This document shows, one piece after another, positions 8,966 through 52,016 of a stretch of DNA of 52,016 nt (the first letter of the stretch is position 1; every line of letters begins with the position of its first letter). The notes beneath the pieces are model-generated. The model was not told the origin of the DNA. It did not search any database and was given only the letters and a program-made list of their open reading frames with translations. The DNA comes from Gammaproteobacteria bacterium (GTDB lineage Bacteria; Gemmatimonadota; Gemmatimonadetes; Longimicrobiales; Gaopeijiaceae): positions 12,830 to 64,845 of the forward strand of contig VXNP01000126.1 of the NCBI GenBank assembly GCA_009840525.1, read 5' to 3'. Made by a program: the position numbers and the translations under genes.

Positions 8966-10057
8966 ATGGACCTGTCTTCTCCGATCCGGGCACCGTCCCG
9001 TGAGACGCCGCATACCCGCCTGCTACCGCTGCTTGCGATCCTTGTCGCTCCCCTCGCCGCGTGCGAATCCGAGATCGCGGCACCCGGGGAGGAAGTGTTC
9101 GAGGAGGGCGAGCTCTCCTTCGATGCCTCTTCCCCTACGGACTTCGTCTACCTCAACCTCGCGGGCGGGACGAGGGTGAGCCCTTCCGACCCCGCGGCCT
9201 CCACCGAATGGCACATGGCGTTCCGCCGCTTCTCGGTACGCCTCAACAGCGGCGTTTCGGGCCCGGGATCCGTGTCGGGGTACAATCTCGGCAACAACGC
9301 TTCCTCGTCGGCGGACCAGATCATCGCACTTACGCCCGAGGATGGAGAGGCAGCGTTCCAGGCCTTTACCGAGGCTGATATCCCGGGTTCGTCCGCCTTT
9401 GTCGAGGATGGCCTCGCCCCGGATCCGGGTTCTTCCTGGTTCCGCTTCGACCCCCAGGCGGGGACTCTGGTGGCAGATCCGCGGGTGGCATGGAAGGTGC
9501 GGGAGAGTTCGGGACGAGGTCACGCGCTCTTTCGCGTCGTGGAGTTGCGCATGGAGGGACAGCGGCCGCTGGGGCTGAACATCGAATACCGGCGCCAGGA
9601 TCCGGGCGGCACCCTGGGCGAGCCAGGCATCGCAGGCGTCGACCTTACGCGCGGCCCCGCGTACGTGGGGTTTGCGGGTGCCGAGCGGCCGCAGGCGGAG
9701 AGCTGCGACTGGGACATTGGTGTCTCGCCCGAGTTCGGCGTCCTGGTGAACGGCAACTGCGGCGCGGGGACTTTCCCCCTCGACGCCGCGCAGGATTTCA
9801 CCACGCAGACGCGCGCGGACGACGCCCCCGAGTACGCGGACTTCCTGGCCGTGATCGCGGGCGCCTTTCCGGCCAGCGTCACCGACGCCGGCGGCATCTT
9901 CTGGTACGGCATCCAGAACAACAACCGCCTGTGGCCGACCTACAACGTCTTCCTGGTGAGGGTGGACCAGGATGTCTACAAGGTGCAGGTCCACGACTAC
10001 TACAGCGCCACTGGAGCGTCGGGGTTCCCGTCCGTGAGGTTCCAGCGACTTCGATGA
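8966..10057 (+). CDS. HmuY family lipoprotein (putative heme-binding)
   Basis: 363 residues with a lipoprotein signal ending LAAC at about residue 33. Two HmuY-like halves can be seen. The first has DFVYLNLAGGTRV and STEWHMAFRRFSVRLNSG, the typical strand order and W-x-x-A-F-R-R-F motif of the family. The second has SCDWDIGVSPEFGVLVNG and YKVQVHDYYSATG followed by FPSVRFQRLR. HmuY proteins capture heme at the cell surface for a TonB-dependent receptor, and a TonB receptor follows with an ATGA overlap. The classical HmuY is shorter (about 200-220 residues), so this is an extended form. Heme-ligating residues cannot be assigned by eye, and the ligand could be another metal complex. Confidence 0.8.
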   Translation: MDLSSPIRAPSRETPHTRLLPLLAILVAPLAACESEIAAPGEEVFEEGELSFDASSPTDFVYLNLAGGTRVSPSDPAASTEWHMAFRRFSVRLNSGVSGPGSVSGYNLGNNASSSADQIIALTPEDGEAAFQAFTEADIPGSSAFVEDGLAPDPGSSWFRFDPQAGTLVADPRVAWKVRESSGRGHALFRVVELRMEGQRPLGLNIEYRRQDPGGTLGEPGIAGVDLTRGPAYVGFAGAERPQAESCDWDIGVSPEFGVLVNGNCGAGTFPLDAAQDFTTQTRADDAPEYADFLAVIAGAFPASVTDAGGIFWYGIQNNNRLWPTYNVFLVRVDQDVYKVQVHDYYSATGASGFPSVRFQRLR

Positions 10058-12267
10058 ACGGGGCCGCGCGCGCGGGATCGACCGCGGCCTTCGTACTCGC
10101 AGCCCTCGTGGCGGCTTCGAGCCTGCACGCTCTGGCGCCATCCGGCCTTCGGGCGTTTCCGCCGGCGTCGCAGGAGTCGCCCCCGGGACAGGTTGTCGAC
10201 CAGGCGTCGGGCGCGGGCATCGCCGGGGCGGGCCTGACGTGGATGCCGCCCGGTGCGGCGCGGGGGCCCCGCGACGGCGATGACAGCCTGCTTCCCTTGA
10301 CCACCAACTCGCTCGGAGCCTTTGCGCTGCCCGAATCCTGGGGTCCCGGGGGCACGATCGAGGTGGCGGCTCTCGGATTCGTCGCCCGCACGCTCACGTG
10401 GGCGGAGGCCGCGGCGGCGGAATGGCGCCTTGAACTCGCGCGTGATCCGCTGGCGCTGGACGAAGTGGTGGTCACGGCCAGCGTACGCGCGCGGCGCCGG
10501 TCGGAGATCGCCGTCCCGGTGGAGACCATCGAGGCGGCGGAGATCGCCTCGGCCGGGGCGGCATCCGCGGACCGCCTTCTGGAGGAGCTGCCCGGCGTGC
10601 AGGTCACCGGGAATGCGCCGACCGGGTCGAACCTGCTGATCCGCGGCATCGGCGGCGCGCGCGTGCTGGTGCTCCTGGACGGGCAGCCGGTCACCGGAAC
10701 CCTCATCGAGAACCGCGACCTGAGCCGCCTGTCGCTGGCCGGGAGCGAGCGGGTCGAGATCGTGAAGGGCCCGCTCTCGTCCCTCTACGGTTCGGACGCC
10801 CTGGGAGGCGTGGTGAACGTCATCACCCGGCTGCCCGCGACCGGCTTCCGCGTCGACGCACGCGCGCTTTCGGGAGGGGCGGGCCGGCAGGAGGCGGAGG
10901 CGACCGCAAGCGGAGGAGGCCGCGTCCGGTACAGCATCACCGGGGGATGGCGCCAGGAGAACCAGGTTCCGGGACTCGTCAGCGGCGGCCAGGACGCCTT
11001 CGCGCGCGTGTGGGACGGCCGTTCCCGCCTGCGCTTCGCCGTGACCGACGACTGGGAGCTGCGCGCCGGCCTCACCTTCCTGCGCGAGCGCCAGCGATGG
11101 CCGGTCGGGGGCGGGTTCTCGGGGTTCAACGACAACCGCGGCGTCTCGGGCTGGCTGGAAACCAGGCGCCGGGCCGGCCCCGGGGAATGGAGCGCGACCG
11201 TTTTCGCGCAGGACTACGAACATCTCTACCGGAGCGCGCGCGGCGACGCCCCCATCGCCGGCGACCGCTCAGGCGCCCAGTGGGAGAGGCTGGCCAAGGG
11301 CACCGCCGGCTACTCGGGCAGCCGGGGCGACCACGACTTCGACGTTGGCATCGAGGCCGCGGCGCGTTCCATCCAGTCGCCCGACAAGCTGGTGGAGGAG
11401 CGGGCCTCGGACGACCAGATCGCCTTCTTCGTGCAGGACGCCTGGCGGCTGGGCGCCACGGTGGTGAGCGGCGGCGCGCGCCTCACCCGCAACAGCCGCT
11501 GGGGGTCGAACCTGGCGCCCTCGCTTGGGCTGACACGCGCCTTCGGGGAGAGCCTGCGCATGCGCGCCGCCATCGCCCAGGGTTTCCGCGCGCCGTCCTT
11601 CAAGGAGCTCGGCTGGAGGTACGTCAACCTGGCCGCGGGCGTCACCGTCCAGGGCTATCCCGACCTTCAGCCCGAGCGCTCCTGGAACGTATCGGCCGGC
11701 GCGGAGTGGCGGGCGGGCGAGCGGCTGCTGGTCGACGCGGAGGTCTACACCAACCGCATCCGGAACCTCGTCGAACTCGGGTTCATCGGCAACGCGCCGA
11801 GCGGTCTGCTCGTCTACTCCCCGCGCAACCTGGCCGACGCCGTCACCCAGGGCTTCGAGCTATCGCTGCACGTGCTCGCGGGAGACGGCGAGTTCTCCGC
11901 CGGCTACGCGTATCTTGACGCGCACACGGGGTCCGGCGGACGGCTCGACCGGCGCGCCAGACACTCCGCGCGAGCCCGCGCAAGCTGGACCGCGGAGCAG
12001 TTCTCGGGCCTCCGCCTCGATGCGACCGCCCACTTCACCGGAAGCGCGCCCATCATCCTGACCCGGCCCGACGGGACCTCCGTTCCCCTGGGGACCCAGG
12101 AGCGGTTCACGGCCGTGGACCTGCAGGCGACCCTTCCCATCGCCGGCAATCTCGAACTGCTCGCGGGCGTCGACAACCTGTTCGACGCCCGTCCCGAGGG
12201 ATGGCAGGGCATCGTCGAACGCCGGTTCCGGATGAGTGTCGGGCTCCGGGAGCTGTTCGCGCGATAG
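10054..12267 (+). CDS. TonB-dependent outer membrane receptor (heme-receptor-like)
   Basis: 737 residues from the ATG at 10054, which overlaps the HmuY-like stop. Order of parts: signal peptide (to about residue 40), a carboxypeptidase-regulatory-like domain (about 45-130), a plug domain with LDEVVVTASVRARRRSEIAV, LLIRGIGGARVLVLLDGQPV and VEIVKGPLSSLYGSDALGG (about 140-255), then a beta barrel. Late in the barrel there is FRAPSFKELGWRY followed by YPDLQPERSWN, corresponding to the FRAP and NPDL boxes of heme receptors; no His lies between them, unlike classical heme receptors. The protein ends in LRELFAR rather than a terminal Phe. Pairing with a HmuY-like lipoprotein argues for heme or related uptake. 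Confidence 0.88.
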   Translation: MNGAARAGSTAAFVLAALVAASSLHALAPSGLRAFPPASQESPPGQVVDQASGAGIAGAGLTWMPPGAARGPRDGDDSLLPLTTNSLGAFALPESWGPGGTIEVAALGFVARTLTWAEAAAAEWRLELARDPLALDEVVVTASVRARRRSEIAVPVETIEAAEIASAGAASADRLLEELPGVQVTGNAPTGSNLLIRGIGGARVLVLLDGQPVTGTLIENRDLSRLSLAGSERVEIVKGPLSSLYGSDALGGVVNVITRLPATGFRVDARALSGGAGRQEAEATASGGGRVRYSITGGWRQENQVPGLVSGGQDAFARVWDGRSRLRFAVTDDWELRAGLTFLRERQRWPVGGGFSGFNDNRGVSGWLETRRRAGPGEWSATVFAQDYEHLYRSARGDAPIAGDRSGAQWERLAKGTAGYSGSRGDHDFDVGIEAAARSIQSPDKLVEERASDDQIAFFVQDAWRLGATVVSGGARLTRNSRWGSNLAPSLGLTRAFGESLRMRAAIAQGFRAPSFKELGWRYVNLAAGVTVQGYPDLQPERSWNVSAGAEWRAGERLLVDAEVYTNRIRNLVELGFIGNAPSGLLVYSPRNLADAVTQGFELSLHVLAGDGEFSAGYAYLDAHTGSGGRLDRRARHSARARASWTAEQFSGLRLDATAHFTGSAPIILTRPDGTSVPLGTQERFTAVDLQATLPIAGNLELLAGVDNLFDARPEGWQGIVERRFRMSVGLRELFAR

Positions 12268-16635: not shown

Positions 16636-17514
16636 TCAGCTCGAAGCCAGCCAGCGATAGACCGCGCCCACGTTGAGCGGGAACCACTCCTCGTACTGGC
16701 CCCAGTGGGCGTAGTCGTCCAGGCGCACCTGGGCCATGGCCTCCTCTTCGGACAAGCCGTCGTCCAGCGCGGCCTGGACGGCGTCCCGCAGGTCCGCGTA
16801 GTAGGCGAGCTGGCGCTCGACTGTGCCGCGGTCTCCCACGTCTCCGTGCCCGAAGACCACGGTCTCGAAGGGGATATCCATCATCAGGTCCAGCGCCACG
16901 TAGAACTCGTCGAAATACCAGCCGGGAAGGTCACGGAACCCCACCCGGTCGTTGCTGAGGAAGTCCACCGCGAAGGCGATGCGCTCCTCGGGGAGAAACG
17001 TCACGATCAGGTTGTCGGTGTGGCTCGGCCCCAGGTAGTGGAGTTCGATGGCGCGGCCACCGAAACGGAGCGTCATCTCGTCGGAGAAGGTCAGATCCGG
17101 AGGCGGCAGGTCGGGGTCGCCGCGCTCCAGGATGATGGGCAGCGCCTTCTCCTGGGCGATGATCGGCACGTCCTCGCCGAACTCGGCCAATAGCGCGGGC
17201 GCGCCGGTGGCGTGGTCGGCGTCGCTGTGGCTGTAGACGATGGCCGCGAGCGGCTTGTCCGGGACCGCGCCGCGGATGGCGCCCGCGAGGCCGGCCGCCG
17301 CTTCCATCGAGATGGGGTCGACGGCCACCACGCCGTCGTCGGTGTCCACGAAGAAGGCGTTGTGCGTGCCCGCATTGTACCAGAAGACGCCATCGGCGAC
17401 TTCGCTGGTCGCGGGATCCATGTCGGGGGCCTGTTCGGCTGTGTCGGCACATGCGCCGAGGGTCAGGACGATAGTGGCCGCAATCGGAATGGGGGTACGA
17501 ATGGGACGGGTCAT
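16636..17514 (-). CDS. exported MBL-fold metallo-hydrolase
   Basis: 292 residues from the ATG at 17514, preceded by a strong GGAGGAGG ribosome binding site. A lipoprotein-type signal (AATIVLTLGAC) precedes the MBL core: FWYNAGTHNAFFVDTDDGVVAVDP, then IVYSHSDADHATG, LHYLGPSHTDNLIVTF, RIAFAVDFLSNDR and ETVVFGHGDVGDRGT. The zinc motif H-x-H-x-D-H reads H-S-D-A-D-H, so the second His is Asp, while the later His (GPSHTDN), Asp (VDF) and His (GHGD) are kept. It could be a metallo-beta-lactamase relative or another hydrolase; substrate is not predictable. It is divergent from the BNR-repeat gene across a region holding an 11-base tandem repeat. Confidence 0.85.
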   Translation of the reverse strand: MTRPIRTPIPIAATIVLTLGACADTAEQAPDMDPATSEVADGVFWYNAGTHNAFFVDTDDGVVAVDPISMEAAAGLAGAIRGAVPDKPLAAIVYSHSDADHATGAPALLAEFGEDVPIIAQEKALPIILERGDPDLPPPDLTFSDEMTLRFGGRAIELHYLGPSHTDNLIVTFLPEERIAFAVDFLSNDRVGFRDLPGWYFDEFYVALDLMMDIPFETVVFGHGDVGDRGTVERQLAYYADLRDAVQAALDDGLSEEEAMAQVRLDDYAHWGQYEEWFPLNVGAVYRWLASS

Positions 17515-17576: not shown

Positions 17577-17598
17577 TGTAATACTCCTGTAATACTCC
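17577..17598. repeat. perfect tandem repeat of TGTAATACTCC
   Basis: TGTAATACTCC occurs twice with no gap (17577-17587 and 17588-17598), an 11-base period close to one helical turn, in the divergent region between the MBL hydrolase (start 17514) and the BNR-repeat lipoprotein (start 17763). It is an AT-rich island in GC-rich DNA. Each unit holds GTA-A-TAC, a short dyad. A direct-repeat operator is plausible. Confidence 0.6.
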
Positions 17599-29283: not shown

Positions 29284-30575
29284 ATGAGTCGAGAGCGATT
29301 GACCTGCCCCGGGAGACGCCCCCACACCGTCGTCGCGTGGTCATGCGGTGTACTGTTACTCCTTGGCGCCTGCGGAGATGGAGGCGAACGCATTCCCTCC
29401 GCGGCCCAATTCGTCGATTCGGCGGGCGTCGCCATCGTAACCAACCCGCCCGGCGAGGCCGTGTTCGCCACCATCGCCGCGGAGCCGGTGCTCTCCATCG
29501 GTGCCATCGACGGCCCCGATGAGGTGCTCTTCGGGCGCATCGCTTCGGTCGCGGTCGATGGCGCGGGCAACCTGATCGTCGCTGACGGGCAGATGGGTGA
29601 GGTCCGTATCTTCGACGCGAGCGGTGTCCACCTCCAAACCATCGGGGGCCCGGGAGAGGGGCGGGCGAGTTCCGCGCACTCGCGGGCGCCTGGCGCGCGG
29701 CGGACGGTGGCATCGTCACGGCGGACAGCCGGCTCCGCCGCATCACCCGCTTCGGCCCGGACGGCGAGCTGCTGGCAACCGCGACCTTCCACAGCTCCGG
29801 CGAACGACCCACCATCCGCGATATCCGCCTCTCGGGAACGGGCACCTTCCTGAGCCGGCTGGATTCCCCCCTGCCCGCGCTAGAGGGCACGTTCAGCTTG
29901 GAAGACGCCCTCGAATCGATTTCGGACCCTCTCGGGAGCAGAGCCGAATACCTGGTCCGGCACGATCTGGAGGGTGCCCTGATCGACACCGTCGCAACGC
30001 TTCGCGGTCGAGCCACCCGGGTTTCCACGCAGGGCAGCGGCACCAACTTTTCAATTCAGATCATGCGGGTGCCCTTCTCACCCGCCCCCGTTGCCACCGC
30101 CTCCCCGGACGGGCGCATGGCCGTGACCACGGGCCGGTCCTACGAATTCTCGGCCTACGACCCCGCAGGCACCCTCGATCGCATAGTGCGCGTCGCCGAG
30201 GAGCCACCCACCCGCACGGAGGCTCACCTCGAAGCCTGGGTTCGCAGCTCCACGGGCGACCGCGAGCCCATGGACGACGCGCAAGTGGAGGCCGCCCTCC
30301 GGTCCTACCGGGAGATTGTCCTGCCCGACCGGCTCCCCGCCTGGAACTCGCTGGTCATCGCCGACGGAGGCGAGGTCTGGGCGCGCCGCTTTGCGATCAG
30401 GGGCGCCGAGACGGTCGTCCGCGATGTGTTCGGGAGCGACGGCAGCTTGCTGGGCCAGGTGGTGGCGCCAGCCGGCCTTCGCATCCAGCACATCGCCGGC
30501 AGCAGGCTGACCGTCATATCCACCGACTACCTGGGTGTCGAGCGCGTAGAGGTGTACGAACTGCAGATGCCCTGA
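29284..30575 (+). pseudogene. propeller-like lipoprotein gene with a single-base frameshift
   Basis: The ATG at 29284 opens a lipoprotein with signal core VAWSCGVLLLLGAC. The frame runs to VHLQTIGGPGEG and then loses sense. Adding one G to the G run at 29657-29660 restores a continuous frame that starts AGEFRALAGAWRAADGGIV and ends at the TGA at 30573-30575, giving about 430 residues. The GEG-x-GEF motif across the break is typical of six-bladed NHL/6-bladed-propeller lipoproteins. The downstream half keeps good coding character with no stop, so the break is recent or a sequencing error in a homopolymer. The gene has a strong promoter sharing an operator with the BlaI/M56 operon. Confidence 0.8.
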
Positions 30576-30644
30576 GGTTAGCTGCAGCCGTCACCACATC
30601 GGAGATACGCGAGCCCGGTCGGGCAGCTTGTCGATTACCGGCCG

Positions 30645-31157
30645 CTACTTGAGCTGCTTGGGTCGTACGTAGTACTCGAGGGTCCCGCTGGTCCCCGGGA
30701 GATCGGCCCACCTGTCGATCCTGAACGAGAGGACGGCCAGCGCGCCGGTGGGATACTTGCGCCGCATGCGCGCCATCTTCTTCTCGTTGCCGAAAACGGA
30801 ATAGCGCCACGCGAATTCGGCGATGCCCGGATTGTGCCCGACCACCGCCACCGTGTTCGCCTCGTCGTCCTGTTTGACCAGTTGCTTCAGGATCGCCTGC
30901 ATCGACGCGTGGTAGAGGGCCCGACGGTGCACGACCGGTACCTCGCCCAGCTCCGGAACCATGCGCTCCCAGGTCTCCGAGGTGCGGCGGGCCGCCGAGC
31001 ACAGCACCCGGTCGGGAACCAGATCGTGGTCACGGATCCAGGCTGCGACGCGGGGCGCGGCCGCGCGCCCGCGTGGCGCGAGCGGCCGGTCGAAATCCGC
31101 AAGAGTGTAGTCCTTCCAGTCGGACTTGGCGTGGCGGAGCAGAAGGATCCTCTTCAA
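30645..31157 (-). CDS. SixA-like histidine phosphatase
   Basis: 170 residues. The phosphatase core LLRHAKSDWKD at residues 5-15 has the R-H-x catalytic motif, CSAARRTSETW holds the next Arg, and VVGHNPGIAEFAW holds the second His. Length and the HAKSDW variant match the SixA branch, whose E. coli member dephosphorylates phosphohistidine on signalling or phosphotransferase proteins. Six bases separate it from the stop of the 55-residue gene upstream. It ends convergent with the propeller-like gene. Confidence 0.9.
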   Translation of the reverse strand: MKRILLLRHAKSDWKDYTLADFDRPLAPRGRAAAPRVAAWIRDHDLVPDRVLCSAARRTSETWERMVPELGEVPVVHRRALYHASMQAILKQLVKQDDEANTVAVVGHNPGIAEFAWRYSVFGNEKKMARMRRKYPTGALAVLSFRIDRWADLPGTSGTLEYYVRPKQLK

Positions 31158-31163
31158 GAGCGC

Positions 31164-31331
31164 TCAGCGGTTCTTCCTTCGTCGCCACTCATACCCCGGC
31201 GGGGCGGGCGGCTTCGGAAGACGGAATGGGTTGTCGGGTTTCTCGGCGGTGGGCGGCTTCGGCTTTTTCGGATGCTGGACGCGCGGCTTGTCGAAGACGC
31301 CTCCCTTCTTCGTGATCAGCTTCCAGATCAT
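31164..31331 (-). CDS. 55-residue basic, proline-rich small protein
   Basis: Reading the minus strand from the ATG at 31331 gives a 55-residue frame starting MIWKLITKKGGVFDKP, containing HPKKPKPPTAEKP and ending GYEWRRRKNR, then TGA at 31164. An AAGGAG ribosome binding site lies seven to eight bases upstream. The product is rich in Lys, Arg and Pro, has no membrane segment, and is probably disordered. Its stop is six bases before the SixA-like start, so the two are likely co-translated. The overlapping frames on the plus strand have no ribosome binding site or family match. Function unknown. Confidence 0.65.
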   Translation of the reverse strand: MIWKLITKKGGVFDKPRVQHPKKPKPPTAEKPDNPFRLPKPPAPPGYEWRRRKNR

Positions 31332-31443
31332 GATGCGGGCTCCTTGGGAATGCGTGGGGATGCTACACGAATACGGCTCGTTACGACAGGGGCCGGCCGG
31401 CCGTTTCGGTCCGCGCCGCTTCGAAGAGCTCGATCCCCCGGCG

Positions 31444-32751
31444 CTAGGACTTCCCCGACGGGAGCTCGCGAAGCGACTCCTCTGCCGGCGCTCCCGCCGC
31501 TCGGTGCAGCACTTGCTGGATGTCGAGGCCGAGCACCGACGCCAGCCCCTCGAGCGTCCCGTAGGCGCCCCGGACGCGCTGGTTCAAGGCGTTGGAGACA
31601 CCCTCGCCCTGGCCCCCGTCCATGACCACGACGCGGTCGATGTCTACTCCTTCCACTGCGCCCACCGCGATCTCCAGCAGCTCCGGCAGTTTTTCGGCCA
31701 TGAACACCGCGAACGCCGCGTCGCCTCCGGTCTGGACCTCCGCGTAGAGCCGCTTGAGCACCTCCACCTGGGCCTTTCCGCGCTCCAGGATCGGGGCCGC
31801 TTCGGCCTGGGCGCGGGCGAAGGCGGCCATCTTCTCGGCCTTGGCGGGCTCCACCACGTCCGCGCGCAGCCGCTGCTCCTCGCGCTCGACGCGCTTCATC
31901 TCAAGGATCTTCTCGGCCTCGACCTCGGCCTCCTGCGCCTTGACGCGCGCGATCTTCTCGGCGGTCTCGCCCTCGCGGTCGAGTTCGGCCTTGCGCACGC
32001 GCAGCTCGTTCTGGGCTTCCGCCACCTTGATGGAGGCCGCCGCCTCGCGCACCTGGGCGCGGCGGCGAGCCTCGGCGCGCGCTTCGCGGGTGTCCGCCTC
32101 GGCCTGCGCCTCCGCGATCTCGGCCGCCCGAATGGCCTCGGCCGACTTCTCGCGTCCGATCGCCTCCAGGTAACCGCGCTCGTCGCTGACGTTCTGGATC
32201 TTGAGGACGTCGAGGTGGAAGCCCAGGGAAGCCAGGTCCTCGCCGGCGTCATCGGCCAGCGCCTTGGCAAACCCGAGCCGGTCCTCGTTGACCGCCTCCG
32301 GAGTGAGCGTCGCGAGCACGCCGCGCAGGTTGCCCGTCAGCGTGTCCTGAGCCAGCTCGCGCACCTCTCCTTCGGTCTTCCCCAGGAGTCGCTCAACCGC
32401 GTTGTTGAAGACCCATTCAGGCTCCGACGCGATCTTCACGTTGGCGATCGCCTCGACGCTCAGCGGGATGTTGCCCTTGGAGAAGGCGTTGTTGACCGAG
32501 ACCTCGATGGGGATGGTTTCGAGGTTCATGTGCTGTACCGTCTCGATAATGGGCACCCGCAGCGTGCGGCCCCCGGAGATGGAACGGTATCCCACCGTCT
32601 GACCGTCCGAGGACGTGCGATTGCGACCGGTGAGCACGGCGGCCTGGTTGGGGGGCACGATCACGATCAGGCTCTTGATGGTGATGACAAACACAATCAC
32701 CGCCACGAGGATCACGATGGCCATCGTCAGGGGTGCGGCGAGAAACTCCAC
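31444..32751 (-). CDS. flotillin-like SPFH/band 7 protein
   Basis: 435 residues from a GTG at 32751 with a GAGGAGG site seven bases upstream. An N-terminal membrane helix (about 10-29, AIVILVAVIVFVITIKSL) leads into the SPFH domain (about 30-200, with VPPNQAAVLTGRN and IEVSVNNAFSKGNIPL). A long Ala/Glu/Arg coiled coil follows (about 200-320) and then a C-terminal flotillin-type region ending near LGLDIQQVLHRAAG. Such proteins form large oligomeric cages in membrane microdomains. It follows an NfeD-like OB-fold gene, the classic partner. An AT-rich repeat block in the 54-base gap may give it separate control. Confidence 0.92.
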   Translation of the reverse strand: MEFLAAPLTMAIVILVAVIVFVITIKSLIVIVPPNQAAVLTGRNRTSSDGQTVGYRSISGGRTLRVPIIETVQHMNLETIPIEVSVNNAFSKGNIPLSVEAIANVKIASEPEWVFNNAVERLLGKTEGEVRELAQDTLTGNLRGVLATLTPEAVNEDRLGFAKALADDAGEDLASLGFHLDVLKIQNVSDERGYLEAIGREKSAEAIRAAEIAEAQAEADTREARAEARRRAQVREAAASIKVAEAQNELRVRKAELDREGETAEKIARVKAQEAEVEAEKILEMKRVEREEQRLRADVVEPAKAEKMAAFARAQAEAAPILERGKAQVEVLKRLYAEVQTGGDAAFAVFMAEKLPELLEIAVGAVEGVDIDRVVVMDGGQGEGVSNALNQRVRGAYGTLEGLASVLGLDIQQVLHRAAGAPAEESLRELPSGKS

Positions 32752-32764
32752 TATGTGCCTCCTC

Positions 32765-32804
32765 TTGTATTATTCTTGTATGACAATCTTGTATTATCCT
32801 GTAT
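32765..32804. repeat. four phased TTGTAT-type repeats upstream of the flotillin-like gene
   Basis: TTGTAT at 32765, 32776 and 32789 and CTGTAT at 32799, with start-to-start distances of 11, 13 and 10 bases; as larger units, CTTGTATTATTCTTGTATG is followed by CTTGTATTATCCTGTATG. This AT-rich island fills the gap between the NfeD-like stop and the flotillin start and stands out in GC-rich DNA. On the minus strand it reads as CATACA/TAATACAAG repeats and could hold both a -10-like TAATAC and operator sites. Confidence 0.6.
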
Positions 32805-32805
32805 G

Positions 32806-33384
32806 TCATTCATCGATCAGCTTCATCTCCACTGGAACGACTGATGCGATTCCTGACTCCATGCCGACCACCACCACGGACTGACCGGGGCTAAGCGTCC
32901 GGTCCGGCGGACAGCTCGAATCGAGGCGGGCGCGGATGCCGTGGCGCCGGTCGCCGCGCAGCACCCGTATCGAGCCGGGGCTCGAAGCCGATATTTCAAG
33001 CGACACCTCCGCGGTCAGCCCCACGAAGGACTGCTCCCCCAGCATGGCTCCCGCGCTTCCGCGCTTGAGGAACCCGAATGCCGCCCCGATCAGCGCGCCG
33101 GTGGCCAACCCGGTAACGCCCGCGACGACGGCGGTCAGTCCGGGACGTCCCCCTCCCCACACCAGGTGAAGAAGGGTGCCGGAGGCGCCGAACCCGAAAA
33201 GCGCGTAGACGATGGCCCGCAGCGAGAAGAGCTTTGCGACGTCGCCGGCATCACCGATGGCGAGATCCGCGTCGGCGTCGAGGTCCACATCAGCATCAGC
33301 CTCCAGGAAGTCGCCGAAGAGCGACAGGAGCAGGAAGCCGCCGCCCACGACCAGGCAGAAGATGTACGCTGCGAGCATGGACAC
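32806..33384 (-). CDS. NfeD-like/YqiJ-like membrane protein with OB fold
   Basis: 192 residues from a GTG at 33384 (an ATG two codons later, at 33378, is equally possible). It has a first helix (MLAAYIFCLVVGGGFLLLSL), a striking Asp/Ala repeat (EADADVDLDADADLAIGDAG, about 28-47), two more helices (about 56-76 and 83-108) and a C-terminal OB-fold stretch with VGLTAEVSLEIS and LSPGQSVVVVGMESG. NfeD-type proteins accompany flotillin/stomatin proteins and help assemble them. It starts seven bases after the S9 peptidase stop. The acidic repeat may bind a divalent cation, which is inference. Confidence 0.85.
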   Translation of the reverse strand: MSMLAAYIFCLVVGGGFLLLSLFGDFLEADADVDLDADADLAIGDAGDVAKLFSLRAIVYALFGFGASGTLLHLVWGGGRPGLTAVVAGVTGLATGALIGAAFGFLKRGSAGAMLGEQSFVGLTAEVSLEISASSPGSIRVLRGDRRHGIRARLDSSCPPDRTLSPGQSVVVVGMESGIASVVPVEMKLIDE

Positions 33385-33391
33385 GTCACCC

Positions 33392-35524
33392 CTACATCGC
33401 CGGCCGCGCCTTCAGCCACTGCTCCCACCAGTCGAGCTGCACCCAGGTGCGATGTACCATCCGCCAGGGGGTCCAGCCGCCGTGGTAGGACTCGGGATAG
33501 CGCACGAACTTGGCCGGAACCCCCTGCTTGTGCAGGGCGACGTACATCTGCTCGGCCTCCTCGATCGGCACTCGATGGTCGATCTCGCCGTGCACGAAGA
33601 GGGTCGGCGTGGTCACCCCGTCTGCGTGGATGATGGGCGACGAGCGCAGCAGGTGCTCCAGACCACGCTCCTCCCAGGGCGGGCCGTAGAACTCGCTCTC
33701 CTTGGTGCGAGGGATGTCGGCGACCGCGTAGTCGCTCACCCAGTTGGAGATGGAGGCCCCGGCGATGGCGGCCGCGAAGCGATCGGTCTGGGTAATGACC
33801 CAGTTGGTCAGGTAGCCGCCGTACGAGTAGCCGGTCACGCCCATGCGGCCGGTGTCGATGCGGTAGCTGTCGATGGCGTGGTCGACACCGGCCATGACAT
33901 CGTCGTAGTCGTTGAAGCCCCATCCACCCCAGGTGCCCCAGCGGAAGTCCTCTCCGTAGCCCGTGGAGGCGCGCGGGTTCGTGTAGAGCACCATGTAGCC
34001 CTGTCCGGCCAGCAACTGGCGGTCGAAGGAGAAGTCGTTGCCGTACATGCCGTGCGGCCCGCCGTGCATTACGAGGATCATGGGGAAGTCGCCGCTCGCC
34101 GCATCGTAGCCGCGCGCAGGCAACATCCAGCCCTCCACCTCGGTGCCGTCCGGGCTGTGGAAGATGAGGTTTTCAGGTTCGAAGAGCTCGAGTTGGGCCG
34201 TGAGCGCCGCGTTCACCTCGCTCAGGCGGGTCTCGGTCGCGGCGGATACGGGCGCCGCGTAGATGTCGCCGGGCTCGGTGGGAGCGGTGGCGCGGTAGGC
34301 CACGCGGGAGAAGTCCGCCGAGAAGGAGAAGCCGGCGAGCCGGCGGTCGCCCTCGGTGACCTGTTCGACCGCGCCGCCGGAGACCGGAACGCGGAACAGG
34401 TGGGTGTTGCCGCGCGTGCCGGCGGAGAAGTAGACGTGCCCGTCGGGTGACGTGATCGGTCCGCCCGGGATCAGGTCCCAGTCGGCGGTGAGGTTGGTCC
34501 TGTCGTCCCCGTCGGGGTTGAACGCAAACAGGTCGTTGGCCGCCCCGCGGTCACGGCCTTCGCGGATGATCACGTCCAGCCCCTCGTTGCCGCGGACCAC
34601 GATGCGGTCGCCGTCTGCCGACCACGCGGGCCCGGAGTAGTTGTATTCGTCGTCGGTGAGGCGGGTGACGGCGCCGTCCAGGTCGACGGTCCACAGGTCC
34701 GCGCGCTCGTAGCTGAGCTCGTCGCGCTGGTGCATGTCGGCCGTGAAGGCGAGGCGGCTGCCATCGGGGCTCCACGCCAGCCCGGAGGCGTCCACGTTGA
34801 GGTCGGTGAGGCGGCGGGGTTCACCTCCGGCGGCCGGGAGCACGTACACCTCGCGCGGCGGAGTGGCGGCGGGGTCGCGGGGATCGGGCAGGTAGCCGCG
34901 GCGGTCGAAGCGGTAGTTCATCCAGTCGTACATGCGCCCGTCGAAGCGCTCCGCCGTGCGGCGCTCGAAGTCCGACGCGTACACCGGCTCGGGAGCCGGC
35001 TCGGGCGGGGTGGGCCGCGTGAACACGATCCATTCGCCGTCCGGGCTGAACACCGGTGATCCGCCCAGTCCGTCGATCTGGAAGGCTTCGCCGGCCGGCT
35101 GGTCCATGCGCAGGAACCAGGTGCTGCCGCCGCTACCGCCATCTCCACCCGGACGGTTCGATGTGAAGACGAGCAGGCGCCCGTCGGGCGACCAGCGGGG
35201 CCCCGAGGCACTGAAGCTCGGGCTGGTGAGCCGCACCGGTTCATCGCCTCCTGCGGCGTCCGCGAGCCAGATCCCGCTGTGGCTCCGGTTCTCCTCCTCG
35301 AGGACCGACGTGATGACGAACGCAACCCGTGACCCGTCCGGCGACATGGCCGGGCTGTTCGCGTTCTTCAGCCGGTAGTAGTCCTCCAGTTCGACGGGCC
35401 TCCGCTCCTGGGCGGCCAGCCCCGTGGCCAGCGGCTGTACGCCCGCGAGACCGAACGAAAGGAGCGACAGCAAGGCCGCGGCGAAGGCGGAGCGGCACAG
35501 GGCGGACGATGGACGCGGTATCAT
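33392..35524 (-). CDS. S9 family peptidase (dipeptidyl/acylaminoacyl peptidase type)
   Basis: 710 residues from the ATG at 35524 with a signal peptide (FAAALLSLLSFGLAG, cleaved near LAAQE). A beta-propeller with SPDGSRVAF, WSPDGRLLVFTSNRPGG and similar blades spans about 50-430, and the hydrolase domain about 440-710. The catalytic triad looks complete: Ser near residue 566 in GVTGYSYGGYLTNW, Asp in VHGEIDHRVPIEE and His in YPESYHGGW. The predicted activity is periplasmic release of dipeptides or acylated residues. It heads the minus-strand run containing the NfeD-like, flotillin-like, 55-residue and SixA-like genes. Confidence 0.93.
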   Translation of the reverse strand: MIPRPSSALCRSAFAAALLSLLSFGLAGVQPLATGLAAQERRPVELEDYYRLKNANSPAMSPDGSRVAFVITSVLEEENRSHSGIWLADAAGGDEPVRLTSPSFSASGPRWSPDGRLLVFTSNRPGGDGGSGGSTWFLRMDQPAGEAFQIDGLGGSPVFSPDGEWIVFTRPTPPEPAPEPVYASDFERRTAERFDGRMYDWMNYRFDRRGYLPDPRDPAATPPREVYVLPAAGGEPRRLTDLNVDASGLAWSPDGSRLAFTADMHQRDELSYERADLWTVDLDGAVTRLTDDEYNYSGPAWSADGDRIVVRGNEGLDVIIREGRDRGAANDLFAFNPDGDDRTNLTADWDLIPGGPITSPDGHVYFSAGTRGNTHLFRVPVSGGAVEQVTEGDRRLAGFSFSADFSRVAYRATAPTEPGDIYAAPVSAATETRLSEVNAALTAQLELFEPENLIFHSPDGTEVEGWMLPARGYDAASGDFPMILVMHGGPHGMYGNDFSFDRQLLAGQGYMVLYTNPRASTGYGEDFRWGTWGGWGFNDYDDVMAGVDHAIDSYRIDTGRMGVTGYSYGGYLTNWVITQTDRFAAAIAGASISNWVSDYAVADIPRTKESEFYGPPWEERGLEHLLRSSPIIHADGVTTPTLFVHGEIDHRVPIEEAEQMYVALHKQGVPAKFVRYPESYHGGWTPWRMVHRTWVQLDWWEQWLKARPAM

Positions 35525-35666
35525 GAGATCCTCCGGATGGGATGGACTTCCGTGCAATGTGAATGGTGAGGGGGCTGGAGTCCAACCGGCGATCAGAGGC
35601 TCCCCCGGGGCGATCCGACCCACGGGCCCATGGCAAGCCCGGGACAGGAGGCAAGGCCGAGCCAAC

Positions 35667-35695
35667 TTGACCGTATCCGGCCGGTCCTGAATGCT
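35667..35695 (+). promoter_or_regulatory. possible promoter of the DUF2891/serine hydrolase operon
   Basis: TTGACC (35667-35672), a 17-base spacer containing the dyad CCGGCCGG, and AATGCT (35690-35695). It lies about 30 bases before the start codon in the divergent region with the S9 peptidase. The -10 box is weak, so this is tentative. Confidence 0.35.
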
Positions 35696-35724
35696 AACGG
35701 CATGCACTGCATCAAAGGATGATG

Positions 35725-36969
35725 ATGGCACCAGCACCCAGGCACATCCGGTTGTCCGCTCTCGCCCCCGTGGCGGTCGTGGTCGCCGCCTCTTGCGCGA
35801 CCGATGCTCCCGACCGGCCCACGGAAAACCCCAATGCCGTCGCCGCGGCATCGCCGCCGGCTGCCACGGCTCTCGATTCCGGTCCGATGCTCGACCTGGA
35901 GACCGCGTTGTCCCTCGCCGCGATGCCCCTCTCCTGTGTGGATCGCCCCCACGCCCTGCGTCCGGACCGGGCCGGCTATCTGGACGACATCAGCTACACC
36001 CGGCGTCGCGACTTCGACCGGAACCGAGCCTTCTACGGCTGCTGGGACTGGCACTCGGCGGTGAACTCGACGTGGGCCATGGTGCGGCTGGTGAAAGAGG
36101 TGCCCGGCCTGCCCGTGGCCCCTCTCATCCGCGAGAAGCTGAGAGACCATCTCTCCGAGGAAGCCCTCGCCGGCGAACTCGAATACCTCTCGGACAACCC
36201 ATCCTTCGAACGGCCCTACGGCTGGGTGTGGCTCCTCCTCCTGCACGGTGAACTGGCATCCTGGGACGATCCCTTCGGCGCCGTCTGGGCCGAGCGTCTC
36301 GAGCCCGTGGTGAGCCACCTGAGCGACCGTCTCATCGACTACCTCGAGGACCTGGAACGACCGGTGCGCACGGGCGTCCACCCCAACACCGCCTTCGCCA
36401 TCGCCACGAGCCTGCAGGCCGAGCAGATGGCGGCGCGCCCCGAGCTGGCTGAGGCCCTGCGCACGTCTGCCGAGCGCTTCTTCGGCGAGGACCGCAACTG
36501 TCCGGTCGCGTACGAGCCCGGCCGCTCCGACTTCCTGTCGCCCTGCCTGGAGGAGGCGGCCCTCATGGGGATGGTGCTGGATCCGGATGCCTACACCATG
36601 TGGCTCGACGGCTTTCTCCCCGCCCTTGACTCAGACGAGTTCGAGCCGCTTCTCGAGACCAATCCGGCGGGCGCGGGGGACGAGGAGCCTCCCGAGGGCG
36701 ATGTGGTAACCAACGACTCGCTGAGGTCCGCCTACGGAACCTACTCCCATCTCATCGGGCTGGCGTTCACCCGCGCGGACGCCATGCTGCGCATCGCGGC
36801 GGCGCTTCCCGAGGGCGATCCCAGGGCTCCCGAGCTGCGCGCATTGGCGACCCGGCACGCCCGCACCGGCTACGACACCATGTTCGACGCCGACTACGCC
36901 GGATCCCACTGGATCGGCTCGTTCGCGCTCAAGTACCTGGTCCTGACGACTGGAGGCTCCCCGCCATGA
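35725..36969 (+). CDS. DUF2891 family lipoprotein
   Basis: Three consecutive ATG codons occur at 35719, 35722 and 35725. The AAAGGA ribosome binding site (35714-35719) fits only the third, which gives 414 residues. A lipoprotein signal (SALAPVAVVVAASC) is followed by DUF2891 landmarks: NRAFYGCWDWHSAVNSTWAM, RPYGWVWLLLLHGEL, HPNTAFAIATSLQ, SDFLSPCLEEAALMG and YAGSHWIGSFALKYL. The fold is expected to be an alpha/alpha barrel, but the family has no established reaction. Its stop overlaps the start of the serine hydrolase gene, so the two are coupled. Confidence 0.9.
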   Translation: MAPAPRHIRLSALAPVAVVVAASCATDAPDRPTENPNAVAAASPPAATALDSGPMLDLETALSLAAMPLSCVDRPHALRPDRAGYLDDISYTRRRDFDRNRAFYGCWDWHSAVNSTWAMVRLVKEVPGLPVAPLIREKLRDHLSEEALAGELEYLSDNPSFERPYGWVWLLLLHGELASWDDPFGAVWAERLEPVVSHLSDRLIDYLEDLERPVRTGVHPNTAFAIATSLQAEQMAARPELAEALRTSAERFFGEDRNCPVAYEPGRSDFLSPCLEEAALMGMVLDPDAYTMWLDGFLPALDSDEFEPLLETNPAGAGDEEPPEGDVVTNDSLRSAYGTYSHLIGLAFTRADAMLRIAAALPEGDPRAPELRALATRHARTGYDTMFDADYAGSHWIGSFALKYLVLTTGGSPP

Positions 36970-42009: not shown

Positions 42010-42417
42010 ATGCCGAGTGAATCAGCCGAATCAAGACGGGAACCGAATCGATTCACCCACCGCGAACTGGACATCATGAGCGTCCTCTGGCGCCGGGGCT
42101 CGGGGACGGTGGCGGAGGTCCGGGACGTCCTCGGGGAGGATGTCGGCTATACCACCGTTCTCAAGATGCTGCAGATCCTGGAGGGCAAGAACGCGGTTCG
42201 CCATGAGAAGGAAGGACGGGCCCACCGCTACTACCCGCTGGTCGAATCCGCCGACGCAGGCGGCAGTGCCCTCAAGCGGGTCATGAACAAGATCTTCCAC
42301 GGTTCCGCGGAGCTGCTGCTGGCGACGCTGGTCGAGAACCGGGAATTCAGTGACGAGGAGATCGAGCGCATGCGGTCCATCCTGGATCGTGCCCAGGAGA
42401 AGGAGGACGAAAGATGA
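42010..42417 (+). CDS. BlaI/MecI/CopY family transcriptional repressor
   Basis: 135 residues with the family's winged helix: THRELDIMSVLWRRGSGTVAEV, VGYTTVLKMLQILEGKNAV (recognition helix) and VRHEKEGRAHRYYPLV (wing), about residues 14-80. A C-terminal helical dimerisation part follows (VMNKIFHGSAELLLATLVENREFS). In the classic system a membrane M56 peptidase senses a signal and inactivates this repressor by cleavage. Here the M56 gene follows with an ATGA overlap. The promoter holds two copies of a palindrome also found before the gene at 29284. Confidence 0.95.
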   Translation: MPSESAESRREPNRFTHRELDIMSVLWRRGSGTVAEVRDVLGEDVGYTTVLKMLQILEGKNAVRHEKEGRAHRYYPLVESADAGGSALKRVMNKIFHGSAELLLATLVENREFSDEEIERMRSILDRAQEKEDER

Positions 42418-43820
42418 TCTTCTGGTGGATGGGCTACGCGGCCGGAATCGGTGTCCTGCTGGCGGTCGGCGGCTGGGCCGGCGAGCGACTCTGCGAGACG
42501 ATGGGCTGGCCGCGCCGGTTCGCGTGGATCGCGGCCCTCACGCTGGCGGTGGTGATCCCTCTCGCCGCACAGCCGCCGGCGCCGGTGCTGGACGTGTCGG
42601 CCGCCGCGCCATCGCCCATCACATCGGTGGTGCAGGCAGCGGATCCGGCGGTCCCTGCGATCTCCGGGACGGGTTGGGAGCGGGCGGCGATCGTCGCCTG
42701 GGGCGCCGCCTCGCTGGCCACACTCCTGGTGTTCGGGGCAATCCTGGGCCTCATGAACCACTCGCGCCGCCGCTGGCCCCGGCGGTCGGTGGACGGCGAG
42801 GACGTCTACGTCTCGGAGGGCTTCGGCCCGGCGCTGATCGGCGTGACGCGTCCCTCCGTGGTCATCCCCGACTGGCTCTTGTGCGCGGGTGACCGGGCCG
42901 GCCGCGTGGCGATCCTGCACGAACGCGAGCACGCCCGCGCGGGTGACCACCTGACCCTCCTCTACGGCGCAGTCATCGCTGCGCTTTTCCCCTGGAGTCC
43001 GGCGGTCTGGTGGATGGTCCGCAACCTGCGCGGCGCCGTCGAGATCGACTGCGACCGGCGCGTCATCGCCTCCGGCATCCCGGCGGACGACTACGGGAAG
43101 CTGCTGCTCGCGATCGGCGTGGGACGGCACCGGCGATGGGTGTTGACACCCGCCCTTCTCGAATCCCGACATTCCCTCGAGCGGAGACTGAAGATCATGG
43201 CTGCCAGGAAGATGAAGTGGAGCCCGCTGCGCGCGGTGACGCTGGCCGGTCTGACCGTGGCGGCCCTGGTAGTCGCGTGTGACACCAACGCCCCCACCGC
43301 TCTCGACGACGCGCTCCTCGACGTGCTGGCGAACCCGGAGGCGGAGGTCAGCGCAGACGGATCCCTCACCCCGCAGGCCCGGGCCGAGCAGGTCGAGGCC
43401 GCCCGGCAGGCCGCAGCCGAGCGGCTTGGAAGCTACAACGTTCGACCCCGGCCCCTGATCTTCATCGACGGTATGGAGGTGTCGAATTCGAACCTCTCGC
43501 TTGAGGCCGGCCAATACACAGTCAAGACCGACCCGTACTCGCCACTAACTTCGCTGAACCCCGACGACATCGAACGGATCGAGGTCATCAAGGGATCGGC
43601 TGCAACCGACTTGTTCGGCGACTGGGCCGAGAACGGCGTCATTCAGATCTTCACCAAGGAGGCCGACGCTTCTGACCCCGCAGAACCGTCGGCGAGCAGT
43701 TCACCGCCCGAGGAAGGCGGTGACGTGGACGAAGTCAAGCCGATCGACATCGCCTACTATGTACAGTTGGGGTCTCCCGCCTTCGTCCTCCGCACAAACA
43801 AGCTGTCGCTCGTGCCCTAG
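42414..43820 (+). CDS. M56 (BlaR1-like) metallopeptidase fused to lipobox and TonB-plug-like domain
   Basis: 468 residues. Membrane helices lie at about 4-20, 36-52, 92-113 and 181-198. The zinc motif is His169-E-x-x-His173 in LHEREHARAGD, with Glu210 in AVEIDCDRR as the likely third ligand. A last hydrophobic segment, AVTLAGLTVAALVVAC (about 274-289), ends in a lipobox-like Cys. Beyond it no beta-lactam sensor domain is present. Instead, after a linker, RPLIFIDGMEV and SLNPDDIERIEVIKGSAATD plus NGVIQIFTK (about 347-415) match the plug domain of SusC/TonB receptors. The tail beyond 415 is disordered. It may sense or hand over an envelope signal to the BlaI protein. Confidence 0.88.
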   Translation: MIFWWMGYAAGIGVLLAVGGWAGERLCETMGWPRRFAWIAALTLAVVIPLAAQPPAPVLDVSAAAPSPITSVVQAADPAVPAISGTGWERAAIVAWGAASLATLLVFGAILGLMNHSRRRWPRRSVDGEDVYVSEGFGPALIGVTRPSVVIPDWLLCAGDRAGRVAILHEREHARAGDHLTLLYGAVIAALFPWSPAVWWMVRNLRGAVEIDCDRRVIASGIPADDYGKLLLAIGVGRHRRWVLTPALLESRHSLERRLKIMAARKMKWSPLRAVTLAGLTVAALVVACDTNAPTALDDALLDVLANPEAEVSADGSLTPQARAEQVEAARQAAAERLGSYNVRPRPLIFIDGMEVSNSNLSLEAGQYTVKTDPYSPLTSLNPDDIERIEVIKGSAATDLFGDWAENGVIQIFTKEADASDPAEPSASSSPPEEGGDVDEVKPIDIAYYVQLGSPAFVLRTNKLSLVP

Positions 43821-44413: not shown

Positions 44414-46459
44414 CTAACGGTCCTGCGTCACCGGCGTCTTGTGCGTCCCCCACTTCTCGAACCACTTGCGCAGGTATAGCTGCGTCCGCAGGAAGTTCGA
44501 GGGCCGCGAGCTGGTCCCGTGCCACTCCTCCTGGAACCGGATCATGACCGTCGGCACGCCCACGTACTGCAGCGCCTGGTAGAACTCCTCGGTCTGGCCC
44601 ATGGGGGTGCGCAGGTCCATCTCGCCGGTCAGGAGCATGGTCGGCGTAGTCACGTTGCCGACGTAGAAGATGGATGAGCGGTCGATCCACTCCGCCGGAT
44701 CCTCCCAGAAGGGCTTCTCGAAGGTGCGCGTGTAGCTGATGGCGTCCGAGGTGCCCATCGCGGACATCCAGTTGACGATGGGGCAGTTGGCGGATGCCGC
44801 CGTGAAGCGGTCGGTGTTGCCCACGATGTAGCTGGTCAGGATGCCGCCGCCCGAGCAGCCGTAGACGAAGAGGTTGTTCTCGTCCACGTAGCCGCGCCCG
44901 AGCATCTCGTCGACGCCGGCCATCAGGTCCGGGAAGTCGGCCCCGGGATAGTCGTGGTTGATGGCGTTGGCGAACTCGGTGCCGTAGCCGGTGCTGCCGC
45001 GCGGGTTGGTGTAGAGCACCACGTAGTCGTTGGCGGCGTGTTCCTGGAAGGCGAAGTTGAAGCCGCCGTTGTACATGCTGTGCGGACCGCCATGGATGAC
45101 CAGCATCATGGGGTAGATGCGGGACGGGTCGAAGTCGGGCGGCTTTACGATCCATCCCTGGATGCGGAAGTCGTCCTCCGAGTCGTACCAGATCTCCTCG
45201 ACTTCACCCAGGTCGACGTACGCCAGCACGTCCGCGTTCACGTCGGTGAGGCGCCGGGTTTCGTCCGGGCTGTCGAGGCCGAAGCGGTAAACGTCGCCCG
45301 GCTCGTGCGCGCTGGAAACGACCCCCACGCCGACACCATCATCCGAAAACGACGACAGGCCGAAGAGGTGCTCGCCGGAGGTAAGCTGCGTCACCCCGCC
45401 ATCGACCGACACGAAGTGAAGCTGCGCGTAGCCGTCCCTGCGCACGGTGAAGTAGAGGCCGCTTCCGTCGGGTGCCCACATCATTCCGCCGACCTGCCGG
45501 TCGTAATCCCCGGAGATCACGCGCGAGCCGGAGCCGTCCCGGTTCATCAGGTGGATCCTCTGGTTGCGGTATGTGTCGCGGTGGGCATCGATGCCGGTAT
45601 AGGCGATGAGCGAGCCGTCGGGTGAAGGAACCGGACCCCCGTCGGGGCCACGTCTGTCGGTAAGCTGCCGGATGTCGCCACTCGCCACGGCGACCGCGTA
45701 GATCTCCGACTCCTGCCAATGCTCGGGACGGTCCCAGTCTTCCTCCCTGTATGAGGTGAAGTAGATCTCGCTGCCATCGGGGCTCCACTGGATGCCGGAA
45801 TGGTTCCAGTCGCCGTCGGTCAGTTGGCGCGCGGTGCCGCCCTCGGCCGGGACCACGAAGACATGGGTCCAGCCGGTGTCGACGTAGCCCTGCCGGTCGC
45901 GCTTGTAGCCGGCCCGCTCCACCACCTTGGGTTCGCGCACCCACTGGGCACCCTCCGGGCGGCGCGGAAGCTCGACGCCGGCGAAGTCGGCCCGGTCGGC
46001 CACCCGGCTGGTGAAGGCGATCCACTCTCCGTCGGGCGACCACTGCGGCCCCGAGGGCCCGTTCTCTAGGCGCGTGATCTGGCTGACCGCGCCTTCGTCG
46101 TCCATCCATCGGACGAAGAGCTGGGAGCCGCTGGGCTCGCCCCGCGCGGTGAAGAGAATGCGGGTACCGTCGGGCGACCAGCGGGCGCCGCTGCCGTCGA
46201 GCAGGTGACGGGCGCGGGAGCCGTCGGCGTTCATGATCCACAGCGACGACTCCCGGCGGTCGGCCTGCTTGTCCACCCAGCCCCGCGTGTAGACGATGCG
46301 CTCTCCGTCAGGGGAAATGCGCGGATCGGACACGCTCTCGATGTCCAGGTAGTGCGTGAGCGAGAGCCGCTCCTGGGCTGCCGCGGGCGCGGTGGCGGAC
46401 AGGACGGCGATGGCTGCCAGGGCGACTGCAATCCGGGTGATGGTGCGTGAACGTCTCAT
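44414..46459 (-). CDS. S9 family peptidase (dipeptidyl aminopeptidase type)
   Basis: 681 residues from the ATG at 46459, with GGAGG eight bases upstream; a GTG-type extension at 46474 lies on the ribosome binding site. The signal peptide ends near PAAAQE. The propeller (about 40-410) has many S-P-D-G blades, and the hydrolase domain follows. The nucleophile is Ser near residue 536 in VYGCSGGGILTSY, with Asp in GEMDLRTPMGQ and His in EEWHGTSSRPSN, so the triad is complete. It is predicted to cleave peptides in the periplasm and is convergent with the plug-domain lipoprotein. Confidence 0.93.
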   Translation of the reverse strand: MRRSRTITRIAVALAAIAVLSATAPAAAQERLSLTHYLDIESVSDPRISPDGERIVYTRGWVDKQADRRESSLWIMNADGSRARHLLDGSGARWSPDGTRILFTARGEPSGSQLFVRWMDDEGAVSQITRLENGPSGPQWSPDGEWIAFTSRVADRADFAGVELPRRPEGAQWVREPKVVERAGYKRDRQGYVDTGWTHVFVVPAEGGTARQLTDGDWNHSGIQWSPDGSEIYFTSYREEDWDRPEHWQESEIYAVAVASGDIRQLTDRRGPDGGPVPSPDGSLIAYTGIDAHRDTYRNQRIHLMNRDGSGSRVISGDYDRQVGGMMWAPDGSGLYFTVRRDGYAQLHFVSVDGGVTQLTSGEHLFGLSSFSDDGVGVGVVSSAHEPGDVYRFGLDSPDETRRLTDVNADVLAYVDLGEVEEIWYDSEDDFRIQGWIVKPPDFDPSRIYPMMLVIHGGPHSMYNGGFNFAFQEHAANDYVVLYTNPRGSTGYGTEFANAINHDYPGADFPDLMAGVDEMLGRGYVDENNLFVYGCSGGGILTSYIVGNTDRFTAASANCPIVNWMSAMGTSDAISYTRTFEKPFWEDPAEWIDRSSIFYVGNVTTPTMLLTGEMDLRTPMGQTEEFYQALQYVGVPTVMIRFQEEWHGTSSRPSNFLRTQLYLRKWFEKWGTHKTPVTQDR

Positions 46460-50482: not shown

Positions 50483-52016
<1,534 letters not shown>

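Follow-up and report, generated by a model that had tools for sequence, protein, structure and literature searches.

The spacer between an nfeD-like and a flotillin-like gene raises the question of why a short intergenic segment carries four tandem copies of one heptamer, and whether these copies serve the genes around them. The window, by which is meant the whole stretch of 52,016 nucleotides that was analysed, contains one such spacer. The repeats are real and are conserved within the genus. As far as their sequence can tell, they are probably the docking site of a regulator.

The preliminary description gave four phased copies of TTGTAT. The spacing of 10 to 13 bp stands, with steps of 11, 13 and 10 bp on the plus strand, and the copies at 32765, 32776 and 32789 are exact, but the fourth, at 32799, is CTGTAT and thus one base off. 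Both genes lie on the minus strand, and their coding strand shows the unit to be the heptamer ATACARG, with starts at 32804, 32794, 32781 and 32770 (steps of 10, 13 and 11 bp). One additional ATACARG is found elsewhere in the window, at 45752. The spacer is 54 bases long, between the nfeD stop, which ends at 32806, and the flotillin GTG at 32751. On the coding strand it consists of C, ATACAGG (unit 1, 32798..32804), ATA, ATACAAG (unit 2, 32788..32794), ATTGTC, ATACAAG (unit 3, 32775..32781), AATA, ATACAAG (unit 4, 32764..32770), AGGAGG and CACATA, followed by GTG. The units are accordingly separated by 3, 6 and 4 bp, and unit 4 adjoins the ribosome-binding site AGGAGG (32758..32763), 6 nt upstream of the start codon. 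The block of 40 bp is AT-rich, as had been described, with a G+C content of 25% compared with 68.9% for the window.

The number of TTGTAT copies is ordinary, four in the window compared with a shuffle mean of 1.68, and at least four were obtained in 8 of 100 shuffles. It is the clustering that is unusual, because three copies within 34 bp occurred in none of 150 first-order Markov windows. Hexamer triples at steps of 9-14 bp number 296 on the plus strand of the window, whereas twelve simulated windows had none or one each; 288 of the 296 belong to a poly-C run at the window end, and the remaining two places are the flotillin array and 8852. The poly-C run itself (51959-51999) comprises 41 bases with a 95% match. 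Tandem Repeats Finder did not list the flotillin array at score 30.

The array is situated in a row of five genes on the minus strand. An S9 prolyl-oligopeptidase-like protein of 715 aa (33392..35539; PF00326, E 5.7e-50) is encoded 7 nt upstream of the gene for the NfeD-like protein (32806..33384, 192 aa), and the flotillin-like SPFH/Band 7 protein of 435 aa (31444..32751; PF01145, E 4.8e-23) is followed by a 55-residue protein (31164..31331) and a SixA-like histidine phosphatase of 170 aa (30645..31157; PF00300, E 7.6e-10). The name NfeD rests on position, on the preliminary description and on the known pairing of NfeD with flotillin because the protein has no Pfam match; its gene is next to flotillin in the congeners as well as in almost all checked loci of other genera. 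The 55-residue protein was likewise without a match in the Pfam scan, and it shows 91-98% identity in the 8 congeneric loci that cover it. The order of the row is preserved wherever congeneric loci extend, including the S9 gene in those that reach so far and the phosphatase gene in the 7 that cover it. All five genes are present in L139, L140 and L143-L146, with fewer at the locus ends in L141, L142 and L188. Among 43 loci of other genera only flotillin was matched out of the five, together with nfeD except in L159. The nearest named records are mostly Gemmatimonadota MAGs, presumably largely derived from sponges, going by their isolate names. Three congeneric MAG records (L139, L140 and L188) are labelled Gammaproteobacteria, although their nearest relatives are Gemmatimonadota.

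For the conservation test, loci were picked for their flotillin gene, irrespective of the motif, from 11 congeners, one of them being the window's own genome. All 11 have the array or its remains at this junction. Unit 1 is ATACAGG in 9 of 11 (AGACAGG in G002 and GTACGGC in G001), unit 2 is the same in all 11, unit 3 is ATACARG in 10 and specifically ATACAGG in 6, and unit 4 is unchanged in 8, with one change each in G007 and G008 and two in G001. The ribosome-binding site reads AGGAGG in 10 of the 11 aligned congeners and TGGAGG in G007. The array of G001 is decayed, with two or three changes in three of the four units. Repeats without conservation would have spoken against the preliminary description; in the ten congeners other than G001, however, the 28 unit positions differ pairwise by 4.05% and the 14 bases between units by 22.9%. 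Invariant columns number 24 of 28 in the units and 6 of 14 between them, with a column permutation p of 0.004, and likewise 0.004 with all 11 genomes. The mean difference at four-fold sites of flotillin is about 23%, a value averaged by hand over 36 pairs without G001 and G002, the latter being absent from the pair table because its flotillin is cut by a contig end, but present in the unit test. The steps of 10, 13 and 11 bp are free of gaps in all 11 aligned rows, so that the distances stay constant while the bases in between change. Between nfeD and the array, six congeners (L011-L016) carry roughly 80 additional bases that the other five lack; the array is unaffected.

At the flotillin loci of other genera that were examined the array was not seen. 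At least two ATACARG within 160 bp upstream of the flotillin start were found by script in 18 of 104 flotillin loci, all from ten congeners; some genomes occur in both source sets of these loci, including eight of the ten array-bearing congeners. Both flotillin loci of G001 have one ATACARG within the same distance. Among the 84 loci from other genera there is no case with two, and L163 has one. All 80 named flotillin loci were scanned by script, and 52 of them were also read by eye.

A motif search of the kind proposed in the preliminary description found arrays of the same word at a few further loci of the genus; selected through the motif itself, these are weaker evidence than the flotillin locus. 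When two close units were used as the pattern, 31 matches were obtained over 11 of 11 congeners, compared with 26 for the reversed control, and a second array locus came to light; in 48 other relatives it gave 5 matches compared with 50 for the control. A model built from flotillin and the second locus (R1) had matches in 11 of 11 congeners and one weak match in the 48 others; its E-values for the flotillin and M49 loci are partly circular because it was built from both. A profile of flotillin alone, at a scale of 8 Mb, gave E 0.23-18 for the M49 sites, about 8 for class d, 27 for class e and 23-45 for four class c loci, with three more class c loci absent up to E 100. Because this profile is weak elsewhere, the kinship of the array classes rests on the common word and period. 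Model R2 found three untrained sites (G001:C55, G001:C19 and G005:C296; E 0.013-0.054), and in each case another congener has an array at the corresponding gene junction. In 24 relatives outside the genus R2 had three weak matches (E 0.27-0.57), of which two lack repeats and the third is loosely similar.

A strict pattern of three units with one mismatch allowed was run on 394 genomes of the class, 11 of them congeneric. It matched eight times in 7 of the 11 congeners and in none of the 383 other genomes; the reversed control had 11 matches in 10 of 394 genomes, more genomes than the pattern itself, but none in the genus. Looser patterns remained below their reversed controls in the genus, with 47 matches compared with 69 (of the 47 only some were read in context) and 15 compared with 19. 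Of these 15 matches, 13 fall in the named classes, and G001:C22 and G001:C38 lie outside them. Because the loose patterns are below their controls, the claim rests on clustering, on common places and on the conservation at flotillin and not on word counts. Whether ATACARGA is in excess genome-wide is unclear, the count being 52 compared with 33 for its reverse and near the expectation from base composition by hand arithmetic. A match of the type TACATGGCCC (L121) was discarded as an array type since it looked coding. Among viral contigs, 22 stretches match three units exactly; these have 35-58% G+C and differing spacers and were provisionally taken as unrelated, and a viral origin was set aside as improbable.

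The arrays at other loci were sorted into classes, with family names taken from Pfam on one protein per class and with lipoprotein being a reading of the N-terminus. Class b lies in coding sequence, where it falls in the linker near the N-terminus of an M49-family lipoprotein, in nine genomes (G000-G004, G006 and G008-G010). Class c is found directly upstream of an M24-family lipoprotein gene in seven genomes, the gene being missing in G000. Class d has an S15-family lipoprotein gene on one side and a convergent P450 gene on the other in G001 and, judged by eye, G005; it is also present in G006, where the S15 gene does not adjoin. Class e is within a gene with AlbA_2 and Fic-like domains in G001 only. 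Further arrays are found at the start of an aspartoacylase/AstE gene (M14-type; G000 and G001), of an M20 gene (G006 and G001) and of an AmiA-like lipoprotein gene with DUF1460 (G005 only). At 17577, the further place named in the preliminary description for a motif search, a two-unit array with an 11-bp step (TGTAATACTCC) is present (17577..17598 on the minus strand), exact in 6 of 9 aligned orthologues; its word is the related TTACAGG and not ATACARG. It lies 63-84 bp upstream of the start at 17514 of an MBL-fold lipoprotein-like gene and is possibly a relative of the flotillin array, going by the word and the step. The M20, AmiA-like and MBL cases were first spotted by eye, and the selection of cases was thus not blind.

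Most classes recur at one gene junction in at least two species, the exceptions being class e and the AmiA-like array with one genome each. An apparent tie of the arrays to peptidase genes (M24, M20, M49 and S15) is seen. The class c alignment has an array block common to five loci with partly poorly aligned flanks, and a sixth locus (G006) has other filling bases but the same 11-bp steps. Class b has a fifth unit that lies beyond the R1 model and reads ATACAGG throughout (7 of 7 rows), albeit in coding sequence. The low differences within classes b and c were given no weight and are partly by construction because the rows were extracted by regular expressions fixing all but one of 30 bases (c) or most of units 2-3 (b); the comparison left out G001 and G010 in class b and G006 in class c, and G000 is absent from its four-fold table, its gene being missing. 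Two dyad-like stretches (CCACAAC...GTGG) were seen by eye upstream of the class c array in L102-L106 and are possibly a separate operator. The class d array of G005 (L230, G005:C296) has a long inverted repeat inside, read by eye, and in this it is unlike other arrays.

Some arrays stand beside genes that are no longer intact. The window's own genome (L102 and L255; G000:C19 near 10041-10074) has an intact class c array without the M24 gene; the frame ends after ten codons with no M24 gene beyond, and the array matches that of intact genomes. The frame after the class b array is open for 484-519 codons, to a stop or the locus end, in G004, G006 and G010. It stops within 7-57 codons in six of nine genomes (G000-G003, G008 and G009; loci L004/L256, L089, L078, L098, L074 and L097), where the linker array persists. 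The losses may be recent, or else the array may have a role that is independent of its neighbour.

The architecture of the units was examined in 19 arrays of nine classes, with 68 units placed by eye and some classes counted in two or three genomes. Of 49 steps, 31 are 11 bp, 6 are 10, 6 are 12, 3 are 13 and 3 are 21, and the 11-bp step was not imposed by model R1. Positions 3, 4, 5 and 7 are A, C, A and G in 65, 67, 68 and 66 of the 68 units, which is partly by construction because the arrays were largely found via such words, and position 6 is G in 39, A in 19 and T in 10. Five of the nine classes, namely flotillin, c, M14-type, M20 and AmiA-like, have a last unit that either lies within about 20 nt of the start codon or includes it, with the start codons near the last units placed by the analyst. 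The arrays are sense to the gene that they precede or occupy; class d is sense to the preceding S15 gene and antisense to the convergent P450 gene.

These results are best read as an operator, in which the four ATACARG heptamers would be bound head-to-tail by one regulator that probably serves a few further loci of the genus. The chance of this is put somewhat short of even, on the strength of the conservation test at flotillin and of the arrays at common gene junctions. A putative regulator on direct repeats, as proposed in the preliminary description, gains support from the fixed spacing, the drifting fill and the mostly 11-bp arrays elsewhere in the genus. Several copies of it would occupy the heptamers upstream of flotillin within the five-gene row, and the same putative protein would probably act at a small set of loci, several of them beside secreted or lipoprotein peptidases. 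We infer that a protein binds the array and does so at the DNA level. The seven-plus-four architecture, the ACA core and the two to five units suggest a winged-helix domain of the OmpR/PhoB or SARP type, and the flotillin array does consist of heptameric direct repeats like the operators of these families. With spacers of 3, 6 and 4 bp the flotillin site would be two adjoining pairs, and binding might either activate an internal promoter or block transcription or translation into flotillin. An internal start might in turn give flotillin, the 55-residue protein and the phosphatase the independent control put forward in the preliminary description. Several observations count against an operator. 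One of three flotillin spacers is 4 bp, compared with the strict 4 bp reported for PhoP (PMC4832192), the sigma-70 scan of 30500-36000 gave no promoter-like site, the array adjoins the ribosome-binding site, some arrays lie within coding sequence (b and e) or behind a gene (d), and the flotillin units of G001 are decayed. No recurring regulator gene was found among the neighbours of the arrays, read by eye and with family scans of 5, 9 and 10 proteins. The window also has a penicillinase-repressor-like and M56/BlaR1-like gene pair at 42013-43817, the second gene with a TonB plug domain.

Control could instead be exerted on the RNA, with AUACARG units before the start codon as the target of a small RNA or of an RNA-binding protein that tunes translation of flotillin and the other genes; this is rather unlikely, although not without support. 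The last units at or near start codons and the sense direction of the arrays, including that of class d to the S15 gene, agree with it, and the flotillin and M14-type arrays are probably transcribed because each lies between two genes of the same direction. A consensus scan of 30500-36000, spacer included and covering the sigma-70 type only, gave no sigma-70-like promoter, and since the array also adjoins the ribosome-binding site a post-transcriptional role is possible. On the other hand, the bias towards an 11-nt step fits the DNA helix, no Rfam match up to E 1 was found in 31000-34000, the sense orientation of the two coding classes is expected since the word read in antisense has stop codons, and the M20, AmiA-like and MBL cases were picked by eye. 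CsrA sites have an ACA/GGA motif with GGA in each site, and the ACAGGA-like words at and before the ribosome-binding site resemble CsrA/RsmA sites in mRNA leaders. However, CsrA was found in 0 of 11 congeners, compared with 10 of 48 other relatives and 3 of 14 named control genomes, and its absence from the genus makes it unlikely. Many units moreover lack GG. At flotillin this holds for two or three of the four units, the ending of unit 2 being AAG in all 11 congeners and that of unit 4 AAG in ten and TAG in one, and CsrA was rejected as the binder. Another reading, which is unlikely, is a genus-specific code of tandem heptamers that marks genes for exported peptidases and membrane scaffolds, works in transcribed sequence, either on the mRNA or as a roadblock, and is kept even after loss of the neighbouring gene.

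The arrays in coding linkers (b and e) and behind a gene (d) would be natural for a dispersed mini-repeat that spread in the ancestor of the genus into intergenic and coding sequence with no regulator involved, as would those persisting without an intact neighbour (class c in G000, class b in 6 of 9 genomes and class d in G006). Such a repeat is distinctly unlikely given that there are few loci per genome, that most classes lie at the same junction in at least two species and that the flotillin units are preserved while the bases between them drift. This last point also weighs against an A/T-rich, poorly structured spacer that arose by local duplication of the ribosome site and aids the ribosome in starting, with no specific binder, because the drifting bases are A/T-rich too. 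In favour of such a spacer, ACAGGAGG, which resembles the unit, is the ribosome site of several flotillin genes from other genera, and the predicted unpaired probability of the array in the mRNA is 0.56-0.73 in six genomes. Yet the constant positions are ACA and the final G and not AGG, flotillin in other genera starts without an array, and this origin appears improbable. A peptide repeat was discarded, since an in-frame reading like HTG-x-IQD recurs but the 11-base period crosses all frames, and no open frame of the flotillin array common to the congeners was seen by eye.

A conserved tandem-heptamer operator, if true, would offer a way into a small regulon of bacteria that are represented here by MAG records alone, and it predicts a genus-restricted regulator. 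No described operator motif for this bacterial group was found in a limited survey of open-licence papers, one of them on Palauibacterales.

Comparison with known systems narrows the type of regulator that might be expected. A LytTR site has 9-bp repeats with a spacer of 12-13 bp. Such a site, with which the preliminary description suggested a comparison, is unlikely here because the units are heptamers with mainly 4-bp spacers. BldC and similar MerR-like regulators form head-to-tail oligomers on direct repeats of varying number, as would be the case here, but the BldC word AATTXXXX(C) is unmatched by the ATACARG units. The gene pair of NfeD and flotillin is shared with yuaFGI of Bacillus subtilis, an operon stated to depend on sigma W, whereas the element described here is placed inside the pair. 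The main operator of PimR has three heptamers spaced by 4 nt, and the spacer of its second operator is 3 nt (PMC5930380). These SARP/SARP-LAL operators are like class c in their 4-nt spacing and like flotillin units 1 and 2 in their 3-nt spacing. The PimR word, in contrast, is CGGCAAG and belongs to the promoter of a single Streptomyces gene, compared with several loci of a Gemmatimonadota genus here. The Pho regulon is reviewed as having 11-nucleotide units of seven well and four less conserved bases (PMC4415409). In M. tuberculosis, PhoP binds TCACAGC repeats with 4-bp spacers, and triple and quadruple sites are bound tighter than double ones (PMC4832192). The arrays of this genus differ from OmpR/PhoB operators in the 3, 6 and 4 bp spacers at flotillin and in their location at start codons or inside genes. 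They resemble them in having heptamers in direct repeat, mostly as 11-bp units of seven and four bases, and arrays of two to four, and ACAG occupies positions 3-6 both in the PhoP heptamer of M. tuberculosis and in ATACAGG.
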